NCBI GenBank assembly: GCA_022385805.1
Contig: MU277727.1
Span: 1-64,000, forward strand
DNA length: 64,000 bases
Direction: 5' to 3'
DNA from: Pilatotrama ljubarskyi
Taxonomy: Eukaryota > Basidiomycota > Agaricomycetes > Polyporales > Polyporaceae
Shown in pieces: positions 14,250 through 44,295 of the stretch (positions within the stretch are counted from its first letter, which is position 1; each line of letters begins with the position of its first letter). The notes beneath the pieces were generated by a model. That model saw only the letters and a list, made by a program, of their open reading frames with translations. It made no database searches and was not told the DNA's origin. A program made the translations under genes and the position numbers.

Positions 14250-15669
14250 ATGCTCTCGTTTCCTGCGCTCTCACTCTTCTTGGTATCCTGCGGCGTTGTC
14301 GGAGTCCGTGGCCATGCTTGTGAGTGACTATCTATCGATCCATCCGGTACCTCCTGAGACGTCTATGCTCGAAGCGATCTGGCATCCGAGCATGTACGGC
14401 TTCAACGTTACCGACAAGACCTTCGACTACGACAACCGTCCTGTTGCGCCTCTGATGAACTACAGCTTCGACAAGTGGTGGTTTCACGGCCATCTAGACT
14501 ACCCTCCGAATCCTGGGGACACATTCGAGTTGCCTGCTGGCCAAGTGGCGACCGCGGAGATCGCGTGCAATAAAGGCGCCACCACCTGGTTCAACTCGTC
14601 CGAGGGTGGTGACATCCGCCAGGGCGATAGCCCGTGCCCAAACAGCCCCACATCAGCGTACCATACCACTGGCTTTGATGATCTGAAGGGTTGTGCGCTG
14701 GCTATCGCCTATGAGTCGGACGTCAGCAAGATTCAACCGGAGGACTTCACTGTTTTCAGCGTGAACCACACTTGCGTGTGGACGCGCTTCACGGACTTCC
14801 CGGTCCCTATGAGGATGCCGCCATGTCCGGAGGGTGGATGCCACTGTGCATGGTTCTGGATACACTCGGTAAGCCGATTCTCAGCTCGCCACAATGTCTA
14901 ACTGCTGAAGATGGTGACGCTACAAGGCCGACAGCGGGGGAGAACAAAGTGAGTCCATTCGCTATGCCGCTTTGAGAGTCTGGCTAAACATCGTGCGATA
15001 GACTACATGACCGGCTTCAAGTGCAATGTGACAGGCTCGACCTCCACTGTTCCTCTGGCAAAGCCTCAGCTCCCTCGGCGTTGTGGTGCCGACCGAGACT
15101 TCGGCAAGCCCGACGCTGTGCCCGGGAACTGCACCTACGGCGCCAAGCAGCCGTTCTACTGGTTCCAGGCTGAACGTAATAACGTACGCCACATTCCAGT
15201 GTCGCTGGTAGTAGCCATCATTGACTGTCATTCCAAAGATGTTCGAGGGTACATACGCGCCGCCGTTCTACACGGACCTGTACAACTTCAAGGACGGCGC
15301 GCAGGACGACATTTTCGTCGACTCCTACGCGGAGATCCCGCCACCCAGCCCCAACTCAACGGTCGTCCCGACGCTCCAGCAGCCGCAGGCGAGCGCCACT
15401 GCGGGCTCATCAACAACCACCGCTTCCTCTACTGTCGCTCCGGCTCCGACGTCAAGACCGACGGACCAGGTGCCGTTCGGTACTCCTCCGGGGCGATGCT
15501 CAGTCTGGTAGGTGCTCTCGTTCATTCGTGTCGCGTCATTGCTGACCGCGAATGCAGCACGAGTAAACGGCACGCTGCGGATAACCTGAGTCGGCGCTCG
15601 TTGACGTCTAGTTGGCTTGGACGCCAGGCGGGCGAGAAGAGGACGTTCAGCCTGTGGCATCCGTTCTGA
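14250..15669 (+). CDS. AA14-type lytic polysaccharide monooxygenase, copy 1
   Basis: Secreted copper enzyme of the AA14 family; characterised members act oxidatively on xylan bound to cellulose. Exons are 14250-14319, 14375-14868, 14927-14948 (22 nt), 15002-15183, 15239-15507 and 15558-15669, giving 383 codons. The signal peptide (MLSFPALSLFLVSCGVVGVR, then G) ends just before His in HASIWHPSMYGFNV. Counting from that His, His99 lies in YHTTGFDDLKG and Tyr176 in EQNYMTGFKCN, matching the reported AA14 copper site (His1, His99, Tyr176). After MFEGTYAPPFYTDLYNFKDG comes a Ser/Thr-rich linker of about 55 residues, then a basic C-terminal piece beginning CTSKRH. A same-strand paralogue starts at 18624. 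Confidence 0.87.
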
Positions 15670-15991
15670 AGTGTTCGGTGAATTGGGCGACGTGGTGCTG
15701 GTCGTCAGCGAACCCCTACTGTACCGTGCGCATCTCTGCAAATTGTATCGCTAGCTCCTCGTAAGTCACACACCTCGGTAGTAGGTTTCGCTCTCATCTA
15801 TTGTTCTGGCAGATAATCTGTATAGTATACAAGTTCTTAGGACGTCTATGGAGGTGATATACAATCGTTTCAACGTACGTGGCTCCAGTCATAGTCCATC
15901 GCCATCACAGGTATCGTACCACTGTCCGTGTGACCGTGCATACACAGCTCGAGCAAGAGTCCGTATGCTCAGCCCGAGCCCCAGCTCCCCT
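15670..15991. other. Intergenic, convergent 3' ends
   Basis: Short spacer between AA14 copy 1 (plus) and the Asp/Glu-rich hypothetical gene (minus). I see nothing beyond probable 3' UTRs. Confidence 0.5.
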
Positions 15992-43022: not shown

Positions 43023-43044
43023 AGTCACCAGCTCAGGAGAGTCC

Positions 43045-44295
43045 TCACCTCAACTTCCTCGACTGGGCGAAAGGCTTCTTCGGTACTCCAACGCGACTCC
43101 CTGTCGAACGGCGGAAGCCACGCGCGGAGGGGCGTGGGCCGCTTGCAGAGCTCGTAGATGCAGCAGACGAGGACGCCGAGGAGTGAGCCGAGGTCGCGGT
43201 GGGGCCGGCCACGTTCGCGGGAGTAGGGATGACCGTCTGCGAGGGGCTAGGATCTGGGATGCCGTCCGGATACGAGTCCTCGAAGATGTCGTCCTGCGCG
43301 CCGTCGTAGAAGTTATACAAGTCGTTGTAGAACGGCGGGGCATAGTAGTCCTCAAATTCCTACAAACGGAACGTGAATCGGCTGTGCACAGCGAGGGACG
43401 GCTAGAGGAATACGTACGTTGTTGCCCTCCTTCTGGAGCCAGTAGAGTGGTTGCTTGGCGCCATAGGTACAGTTGCCCGGGACTGGGTCGGGCTTGCCGT
43501 GCTCTGGATCGGCGCCGCACCGACGAGCGACTTTGGGTTTGGCAAGGGGAACGTTGGAGGTTGCACCCGTGACGTCGCATTTGAAGCCGTTCATGTAGAT
43601 CTGCTCACTGCCGCTGTCGGGCTGCAGAGTAGCCATGAGCACTCATCCGCATCCGGAGAACTCTTACACAGGAAACGTACCGAGTGGATCCAGAACCACG
43701 CGCAGTGGCATCCGCCCTCGGGGCCTGCGGGCATGCGCGCCGGGACGTGGAAGTCCGTGAAGCGGTTCCAGACGCACGTCTGGTTCACGCTGAACACGAC
43801 GAAGTCCTCCGGCTTTATCTTGCGCACGTCCGGCTCGTACGCGATCGCGAGCGCGCAGCCCTTAACGTCGTCGAGCCCGGTCGTGTGGTACTCCGCCGGG
43901 GGGCTGCCAGGGCACGGGTCATTGCCGTTGCGGATGTCGCCGCCCTCGGACGAGGCGAAATAAGACGTCGCGCCCTTGTTGCAGGCGAGCTCCGCCGTCG
44001 CGGGCTTCCCCGCCGGCAGCTCGAAGACGTCGCCCGGGTTGGGAGGGTAGTCGAGGTGGTTGTGAAACCACCACTCTTGGAAGGTCATGTCTTGCAGGGG
44101 CACGACGGGGCGGTTGTCGTAAGGGAACGTCTGCTCCGTGACGTTGAAGCCGTACATGCTCGGGTGCCATATCGCTATGATGAGTGAGAGGGCGTCAGCG
44201 TATCCGGCTGAGGCTTCCGTGGGTGTATGCGTACCGATGTGAGCGGACGTTAGAGGTAAGGAGGCTGCGATGGCAGCCAATAGGATAGGGATCAT
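43045..44295 (-). CDS. AA14-type lytic polysaccharide monooxygenase, copy 3
   Basis: Third AA14 LPMO, secreted. Exons on the minus strand: 44235-44295, 43681-44174, 43418-43621 and 43045-43359, giving 357 residues. The signal peptide MIPILLAAIAASLPLTSA leaves His1 in HIAIWHPSMYGFNVT. His99 is in YHTTGLDDVKG and Tyr176 in EQIYMNGFKCDV. The 204 nt exon equals the 22 nt and 182 nt exons of the other two copies joined, so one intron differs. The end of the catalytic domain is EFEDYYAPPFYNDLYNFYDG, then a short Ser/Ala linker and a basic tail (GFRRSTGSRVGVPKKPFAQS). There is no separate last exon as in copies 1 and 2. TATAAG at about 44450 on this strand is a TATA candidate. A hAT-like element sits just past the stop. 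Confidence 0.88.

Follow-up and report, generated by a model that had tools for sequence, protein, structure and literature searches.

Three linked AA14 LPMO genes in Pilatotrama ljubarskyi: an apparently old cluster with distinct C-terminal tails

AA14 is a small LPMO family with a disputed substrate; both substrate and xylan activity are contested in the available text of PMC10885436, which also gives four AA14 genes for Pycnoporus coccineus and a usual range of 1–4. PcAA14B of Pycnoporus/Trametes coccinea (PDB 5no7; P0068, PYCCODRAFT_1372210; the two are identical over the compared stretch) shares its catalytic domain and copper ligands with the genes described here, and tail type 3 with copy 3. 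In the LPMO survey of Tamburrini et al. 2021 (PMC8615602), AA14 is described as rich in disordered C-terminal regions with predicted binding sites, and the available part of that text states that the disordered C-terminal regions of LPMOs show no sequence conservation. In contrast, we find the last residues to be conserved in many AA14 proteins—the AA14 family and its metal site are already known, and the conserved terminal tail is the new element.

Here we analyse a window (the whole stretch of 64,000 nucleotides from Pilatotrama ljubarskyi) that holds three AA14 loci. Models spliced with GT..AG introns give proteins of 382, 642, and 380 aa, and the features are as follows.

14250..15669, + strand: AA14 copy 1, tail type 1; 6 exons, 382 aa; C-terminus ..KRTFSLWHPF
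14250-14319, 14375-14868, 14927-14948, 15002-15183, 15239-15507, 15558-15669, + strand: copy 1 exons
14375..14868, + strand: copy 1 main catalytic exon, 494 nt
15508..15557, + strand: copy 1 last intron, phase 2, splitting a Cys codon TG/C; read-through gives W-stop
15558..15669, + strand: copy 1 terminal exon, with basic segment and FSLWHPF end
18624..20851, + strand: AA14 copy 2, tail type 2; 6 exons, 642 aa; C-terminus ..RSSLWSFF
18624-18684, 18739-19232, 19289-19310, 19365-19546, 19606-20573, 20650-20851, + strand: copy 2 exons
18739..19232, + strand: copy 2 main catalytic exon, 494 nt
20574..20649, + strand: copy 2 last intron, phase 2, TG/C; read-through gives W-stop
20650..20851, + strand: copy 2 terminal exon, containing CKRQFRRKVALRRR.., RSSLWSFF end
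41878..44295, - strand: AA14 copy 3, tail type 3; 380 aa with the predicted terminal exon
44295-44235, 44174-43681, 43621-43418, 43359-43049, 41950-41878, - strand: copy 3 exons
43681..44174, - strand: copy 3 main catalytic exon, 494 nt, carrying a C153-to-Gly change
41951..43048, - strand: copy 3 last intron, 1098 bp, phase 2; read-through gives R-stop
41878..41950, - strand: copy 3 predicted terminal exon, SAADIKNRLLRARRSGPWQPDEQL; absent from the initial annotation and from P0059
41990..43012, no strand assigned: non-autonomous TIR transposon, 1023 bp, within the last intron of copy 3

The profile search called for by the initial annotation was run with PF22810 (LPMO_AA14), and its claim of three AA14 genes stands: the best stretches at the three loci score 392.9, 349.9, and 343.6 bits, far above the profile cut-off of 27 bits. 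The same profile also matches P0001, P0020, and P0059, and it places the fourth AA14 gene of the genome on contig C34; a count of four is ordinary for the family. Copy 3 is 86% identical to 5no7 over the catalytic domain—PcAA14B is nearer to it than to copies 1 and 2—and 5no7 matches copy 2 without its tail at E 3.7e-154. The LPMO beta-sandwich fold can be seen through a relative of copy 1: the AlphaFold model of Trametes cingulata P0001, of moderate confidence (mean pLDDT 65), has 5no7 as its best PDB match, with a TM of 0.83 by target length and E 2.8e-37. Copy 1 has its closest relative in P0001 (95% identity, 100% coverage) and copy 2 in T. cingulata P0013 (77% over 87%); these two lie on one 95,579 bp record, linked like the copies in the window. 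For copy 3, P0059 (BV20DRAFT_657963, P. ljubarskyi) is identical to the read-through form over 357 aa, and we treat the two as a single gene of P. ljubarskyi.

The initial annotation also proposed that all three genes keep a copper site, with a His directly after the signal peptide and main exons of equal length, and each of these points held. The presumed mature proteins have His1, His99, and Tyr176 in all three copies, with the signal-peptide cut placed from the sequence itself and from how well conserved the His is. Each main exon measures 494 nt. Intron phases are 1,0,1,0,2 in copies 1 and 2, and copy 3 is the same minus one intron. His99 and Tyr176 are invariant in 150/150 aligned rows. 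H1 is found in 137 of them; of the other 13, 10 have a gap and 3 a different residue. Near the site, H166 and Q174 are identical among the three copies, and their Q-N/I-Y fits the N/Q/E-X-F/Y motif as quoted in PMC6420742. Together with the profile and 5no7 matches, these residues support the three loci as AA14 LPMOs with an intact copper site. After secretion, removal of the signal peptide would expose His1, copper would bind in the histidine brace, and the reduced enzyme would use O2 or H2O2 to oxidise a wall polysaccharide. Copy 3 departs from PcAA14B in its last intron, which holds the transposon, and in lacking C153, a residue present in 148 of the 150 aligned rows; copy 3 may therefore be left with an unpaired cysteine.

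The wall in question could be the fungus's own rather than that of wood, a reading that we consider possible but doubtful. AA14 proteins are listed for the ectomycorrhizal fungi Boletus edulis, Amanita phalloides, and Imleria badia. The dispute over xylan activity (PMC10885436) points the same way, as does an AA14 gene of Cryptococcus neoformans that is induced strain-specifically in patients, a xylan-free setting (PMC10166503); however, that study tested AA9 and not AA14, as far as its available text goes, and one P. coccineus AA14 gene is strongly up-regulated on pine and aspen (PMC6540522).

Three copies within 30 kb, with catalytic domains 87–89% identical between copies 1 and 2, could be read as the initial annotation read them: a recent local expansion in P. 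ljubarskyi, its copies specialised on different hemicelluloses. We regard this as very unlikely. Four-fold silent sites are identical in only 38%, 39%, and 44% between the three copies; the gene number is ordinary (PMC10885436); and both the three tail types and the linkage recur in other genera, 17 of the 19 species with at least two listed AA14 proteins having them on one record (among the best 120 matches per search, with equal record lengths as a proxy for linkage). Recent expansion was set aside on the low silent-site identity and the linkage elsewhere. The idea of different hemicelluloses is likewise without sequence support, the copies showing no difference in copper ligands or near-site residues; their clearest differences lie in the C-terminal tails. 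The cluster thus looks like a set of old neighbours, because silent-site agreement is so low and one-record linkage so common.

In trees, catalytic domains cluster by lineage and not by tail type. The AU test rejects trees in which one tail type forms a clade (p-AU 0.0046, 0.0009, and 0.018, for groups named after the first tree was seen), and copy-by-copy orthology through the catalytic domain was accordingly rejected for every tail type when the Trametes and Ganoderma/Polyporus groups were taken together; the exception is type 2 within Trametes alone, for which the AU test is not significant (p 0.174). Copies 1 and 2 share one stretch of 20 consecutive informative codons without a difference (permutation p 0.0006, with six pairs tried). 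This pattern suggests that catalytic domains have been homogenised within lineages. We think it probable that the genes form an old cluster of secreted, tail-tethered copper enzymes: the copies would have arisen before the compared genera separated and then stayed linked, gene conversion would swap catalytic sequence while the tails remain distinct, and each tail would hold its enzyme at a partner or surface. The cluster is a good case for linked paralogues that exchange their catalytic part yet keep different tails.

In each copy the catalytic domain is followed by a Ser/Thr/Ala-rich linker (long and Ser/Ala-rich in copy 2), and the protein closes with a basic segment that belongs to one of the three tail types. 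Of the 145 listed homologues, 67 have (L/I/F)-W-x-x-(F/W) as their very last residues, downstream of the disordered linker, and these span five or more orders of Agaricomycetes. Shuffling yields a mean of 0.03 and a maximum of 1 in 500 rounds; an LW end is absent from 58 of the 145. In copies 1 and 2 this end sits in the terminal exon. Copy 3 itself is without an LWxxF end, and its terminal exon resembles the C-termini of T. elegans P0102 and T. versicolor P0058. The tails agree with a dCTR in being apparently disordered and without a known module—pLDDT is 35–46 in the P0001 tail, and Pfam and NCBIfam return no family for the three tail ends—and depart from it in the sequence conservation of the end. 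With such pLDDT values the model does not give the tail structure, and a folded or docked tail was dropped as a candidate, the P0001 model offering no confident structure for one. A PDB search with the motif profile gave a single weak match, a small terminase (E 0.1).

In all three window copies the last intron is in phase 2 and read-through runs into a stop at once, which is why the terminal exon is often missing from database models. Short ends occur in models from several species: P0004, P0005, P0006, P0008, P0011, P0013 (ending ..TNAMW), P0034, P0035, P0045, P0051, and P0059 (halted at the last donor), among others. The P0068 model of PcAA14B reads past the last donor, and appears from its sequence to run through the intron and then enter the terminal exon in the wrong frame. 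These short ends, together with the immediate stops, would also be expected if the terminal exons were normally unused—the last intron being retained, with W-stop or R-stop as the main form, or both C-termini serving as alternatives. We judge this rather improbable: the protein sequence of the terminal ends is conserved between orders, a GTRA donor in a phase-2 intron yields a stop by itself, the C34 copy has no stop on read-through of its last donor, and P0068 continues past its own. If the terminal exon is translated, several AA14 records, probably the gene model of crystallised PcAA14B among them, have a wrong C-terminus, and enzymes built from such records or cut earlier lose a conserved part.

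The initial annotation had copy 3 at 43045-44295, reading to the stop at 43045 (357 aa); the gene is there, but its end probably lies beyond, across the intronic transposon, where a predicted terminal exon related to that of its relatives persists at 41878-41950. The transposon has 15-bp perfect terminal inverted repeats and a TA target-site duplication, with TA on both flanks in all six element copies examined, as in Tc1/mariner-like elements. The element in the window has no transposase coding, its longest stop-free stretch being 99 codons, and we therefore call it only a non-autonomous TIR element, without a family name.

Our guess at the function of the tail is docking. We tentatively propose, as an unlikely reading, that in Agaricomycetes AA14 a conserved free C-terminal peptide—a basic segment, usually an upstream cysteine, and an R-x-x-L-W-x-x-F/W end—serves for docking, with a wall polymer, a redox partner, or, via the cysteine, a second AA14 as the possible partner. 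Since the exon is missed or misread in models and the tail is often left off constructs, native AA14 forms would be untried, which could help explain the conflicting reports of AA14 activity. The basic tail might instead be a propeptide, cut off by a Kex2-like protease during secretion and inactive in the mature enzyme; we give this a minor chance. KR or RR does occur within the last 60 residues of 83/87 LW-ended proteins, but it stands two or three residues before LW in only 36 of the 87, and in a discarded piece there would be no need for the W and the aromatic final residue to be maintained. As a general rule, Kex2 release of the extreme C-terminus was rejected, the dibasic pair adjoining the motif in only those 36.

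That the motif might be a widespread protein ending in this genome was also considered and set aside. Across genome DNA the pattern R-x-x-L-W-x-x-F-stop has 27 matches, against 21 when reversed; the test is weak because the TRR end also takes TGG and copy 1 does not fit the pattern. One of the 27 matches is copy 2. Around the AA14 genes, Pfam was run on 23 non-AA14 stop-free stretches, drawn from the 88 listed in the window (AA14 stretches included in the 88), and five have a family: a sugar transporter, two S10 carboxypeptidases, UBZ, and IMS.

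Searching the 33.1-Mb genome (173 contigs, the window being on contig C58) with the AA14 profile PF22810 returned four genes: the three in the window that the initial annotation had proposed, and one on contig C34 (the C34 copy). Gene models were spliced by hand with GT..AG introns, giving the following features.

14250-15669, + strand: AA14 copy 1, 6 exons, 382 aa
18624-20851, + strand: AA14 copy 2, 6 exons, 642 aa
44295 (start) to 43045 (stop), - strand: AA14 copy 3, 357 aa; 380 aa with the predicted terminal exon
41950-41878, - strand: predicted terminal exon of copy 3, SAADIKNRLLRARRSGPWQPDEQL, 1.1 kb away from the rest
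41990-43012: inserted element in the last intron of copy 3, bounded by perfect 15-bp terminal inverted repeats and flanked by duplicated TA
Contig C34, locus L009 3890-5835: fourth AA14 gene, 10 exons, last intron of phase 2 in a Cys codon

In all three predicted mature proteins residue 1 is His, residue 99 is His, and residue 176 is Tyr, and each copy has a main exon of 494 nt—the observation in the initial annotation, which had claimed these copper ligands and equal exon lengths, was therefore right. All three belong genuinely to a known family, of which they are ordinary representatives, and they form an old cluster. The 357-aa form of copy 3 matches BV20DRAFT_657963 (P0059) of Pilatotrama ljubarskyi, Polyporaceae, at 100% identity over its whole length, and copy 1 shares 95% identity with a protein of Trametes cingulata; the catalytic domain of the C34 copy is 66-68% identical to those of the cluster. 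A PDB search with copy 2 lacking its tail (E up to 0.001) returned a single sequence, 5no7, the crystal structure of PcAA14B, whose catalytic domain shares 86% identity with copy 3 and 76% with copies 1 and 2, and does not differ from that of the Trametes coccinea database protein P0068. The AlphaFold model of P0001, a relative of copy 1, is predicted with moderate confidence (mean pLDDT 65) and also has 5no7 as its best match.

We aligned 150 rows, comprising 145 database proteins, four proteins from the P. ljubarskyi genome, and 5no7; the database proteins come from three homologue lists (the best 120 of 489, 120 of 448, and 120 of 275 matches), so the set is biased toward close relatives. 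Among the matches listed, His99, Tyr176, and His166 are invariant (150/150), and H1 is present in 137 rows, the remaining 13 being 10 gaps and 3 different residues. C153 occurs in 148 of the 150 rows among the matches listed and is absent only from copy 3 and P0059, which is the database twin of copy 3 and hence no independent evidence for the loss. Gly replaces Cys153 in copy 3 (within exon 43681-44174), leaving nine cysteines in the catalytic domain; copies 1, 2, and C34 have ten.

What this analysis adds is a C-terminus that is conserved and often mis-annotated, and the finding that catalytic domain and tail have had separate histories. As modelled, copies 1 and 2 end, after a disordered linker, in (L/I/F)-W-x-x-(F/W), coded by a terminal exon. 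Among the matches listed, 87 of the 145 database proteins carry L/F/I-W inside the last eight residues and 67 have the exact terminus; when the last 60 residues were shuffled 500 times, the corresponding counts were 2.7 on average (maximum 11) and 0.03 (maximum 1). A cysteine lies within the last 90 residues in 83 of these 87 proteins, and the median net charge is +8 for the last 45 residues and -1 for the preceding 60. Proteins with the exact terminus come from Polyporales (copies 1 and 2 of the window), Boletales (Paxillus P0111), Russulales (Amylostereum P0056), Corticiales (Punctularia P0120), and Agaricales (Gymnopilus P0101), with the looser LW form also in Gloeophyllales (Heliocybe P0083). 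The LW end is absent from 58 of the 145 among the matches listed, in part through truncated or read-through models; rows from Mycena, Thelephora, Armillaria, and Boletus edulis appear truly to be without it. Copy 3 with its predicted terminal exon would end in ..RARRSGPWQPDEQL, basic and with W but without LWxxF, and the C34 copy has a basic terminal stretch and no W. Searches of the three tail ends against Pfam and NCBIfam gave no family match. Disordered C-terminal regions of LPMOs show no sequence conservation according to the survey of Tamburrini et al. 2021 (PMC8615602, as excerpted); in contrast, many of the AA14 tail ends here are conserved. We found no description of the motif in the portions of the open-licence literature covered.

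The last intron is of phase 2 in copies 1, 2, and 3, and reading through its donor gives an immediate stop (TGG-TAG, TGG-TGA, and AGG-TGA, respectively), which is why database models often miss the tail. Eleven database proteins ending in ..RCSAW, ..TNAMW, or ..QSRKLR (P0004, P0005, P0006, P0008, P0011, P0013, P0034, P0035, P0045, P0051, P0059) look like such read-through products, a call made from protein ends, with DNA behind it for P0059 (the window). The C-termini of T. elegans P0102 and T. versicolor P0058 are similar to the predicted terminal exon of copy 3. Near the end of P0068, the PcAA14B protein, a coding sequence for the residues QRGRHQEPSAQGASLAFLA exists whose +1 frame gives the terminal exon of copy 3 at 16 of 18 places; this comparison tried both shifts and the offsets within the last 60 residues. 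Among 8,488 control fragments, taken at every seventh offset of the other 144 database proteins with shift 1, the highest score was 12. Given this difference, it is very likely that the PcAA14B database model finishes with a read-through intron followed by an out-of-frame exon. The P0068 tail measured here is as long as the 136-residue disordered tail published for PcoAA14B (PMC10885436, as excerpted).

Three tail types were distinguished by eye.

Type 1 (copy 1): RC..C, then FSLWHPF
Type 2 (copy 2): long linker, CKR..RRR, then RSSLWxxF
Type 3 (copy 3): no Cys, ..RARR.., W

A tree was built from 55 catalytic domains picked from the 150 rows. The 12 Ganoderma/Polyporus-group proteins in it, which between them cover all three tail types, form one clade (99/95), and a second clade (98/94) unites seven type-1 with seven type-2 proteins from Trametes and its allies, inside which the types separate; the five remaining type-2 proteins of that set, including window copy 2, sit outside it. 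AU tests, for groups picked after the first tree of all 150 rows was viewed, rejected each tail type as one clade across groups (p-AU 0.0046, 0.0009, and 0.018 for types 1, 2, and 3) and did not reject type 2 monophyly within Trametes alone (p-AU 0.174). Of six pairs tried, copies 1 and 2 share one run of 20 identical informative codons (p 0.0006 by permutation), and the remaining five pairs have no significant run (p 0.17-0.85). Gene conversion of catalytic sequence inside the cluster fits best, the alternative being repeated duplication with tails re-acquired.

The initial annotation read the three genes as a local expansion; as a recent event this is very unlikely. Four-fold silent sites are identical at 38% (copies 1-2), 39% (1-3), and 44% (2-3), similar to the 37%, 50%, and 51% of copies 1, 2, and 3 against the C34 copy. 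Copies 1 and 2 have intron phases 1,0,1,0,2 in common, and a 22-nt micro-exon adjoins the copper Tyr codon in copies 1, 2, and C34; copy 3 lacks the intron that follows it. Linkage also appears elsewhere: among the matches listed, 19 species have at least two AA14 proteins, and in 17 of these the proteins lie on records of equal length—a proxy for the same record, some being megabases long—with Panus rudis and Cerioporus squamosus as exceptions. This count omits Dichomitus squalens, whose two proteins come from different strains, and further strains with a single protein, and one Grifola protein in it is a chimeric tubulin-containing model. The best cases for close linkage are T. cingulata (95.6-kb record), Antrodiella citrinella (72.3 kb; g4758, g4761), T. 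cinnabarina (g8, g10), and, if numbering follows order, T. versicolor (8568, 8577). Four AA14 genes per genome is ordinary; wood-decay fungi carry 1-4 each, P. coccineus four (PMC10885436, as excerpted), and seven phlebioid genomes 2-3 (PMC6540522, as excerpted).

The window genes encode AA14 proteins with copper ligands and tails; their substrate and the role of the tails we infer. In LPMOs, secretion exposes His1 and copper is bound in a brace; once a reductant has converted the metal to Cu(I), C-H bonds are oxidised with O2 or H2O2. After secretion, the window AA14s would likewise expose His1 and take up copper in the brace, and the reduced Cu(I) enzyme would use O2 or H2O2 for C-H oxidation of its substrate. 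AA14s are also present in ectomycorrhizal fungi, which, together with induction of the C. neoformans AA14 in patients, makes action on the fungus's own wall a live alternative. That induction was strain-specific (PMC10166503, as excerpted), and the xylan-oxidising role of AA14 is disputed (PMC10885436, as excerpted). For LPMO tails generally, wall attachment is a suggested role, and tails are generally left out in cloning, according to the excerpted text of a review (PMC10154629).

The predicted last intron of copy 3 measures 1,098 bp, of which 1,023 bp are the inserted element; without the element and one TA it would be 73 bp. Across the genome there are 18 occurrences of the terminal repeat, two of them at copy 3. 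TA lies on both sides of all six two-ended copies examined (the window and five further), and CTA precedes the element in 5/5 other copies read. Genome matches (contigs C2, C5, C7, C22, C42, C52, C65, C75, and C88) are at 94-98% when nearly full-length and 73-100% when partial. With a longest stop-free stretch of 99 codons, the element looks non-autonomous.

Other genes and stretches in the window are as follows.

15992-17569, - strand: 525-codon ORF, acidic, Ser-rich, no Pfam match, between copies 1 and 2
21425-23392, - strand: 655-codon stop-free stretch, no Pfam match, between copy 2 and the tubulin gene
23792-24897, + strand: tubulin gene near copy 2
31945-36179, - strand: two adjoining S10 serine carboxypeptidase genes, between copies 2 and 3
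59756-62497, - strand: IMS (Y-family polymerase) domain and ubiquitin-binding zinc finger in adjoining stretches, probably a DNA polymerase eta gene

In T. cinnabarina one gene number (g9) separates the type 1 and type 2 AA14 genes. Grifola frondosa P0138, named Tubulin beta-2 chain (864 aa), has AA14 and tubulin domains; its gene model probably fuses the same AA14/tubulin neighbours into a chimera.
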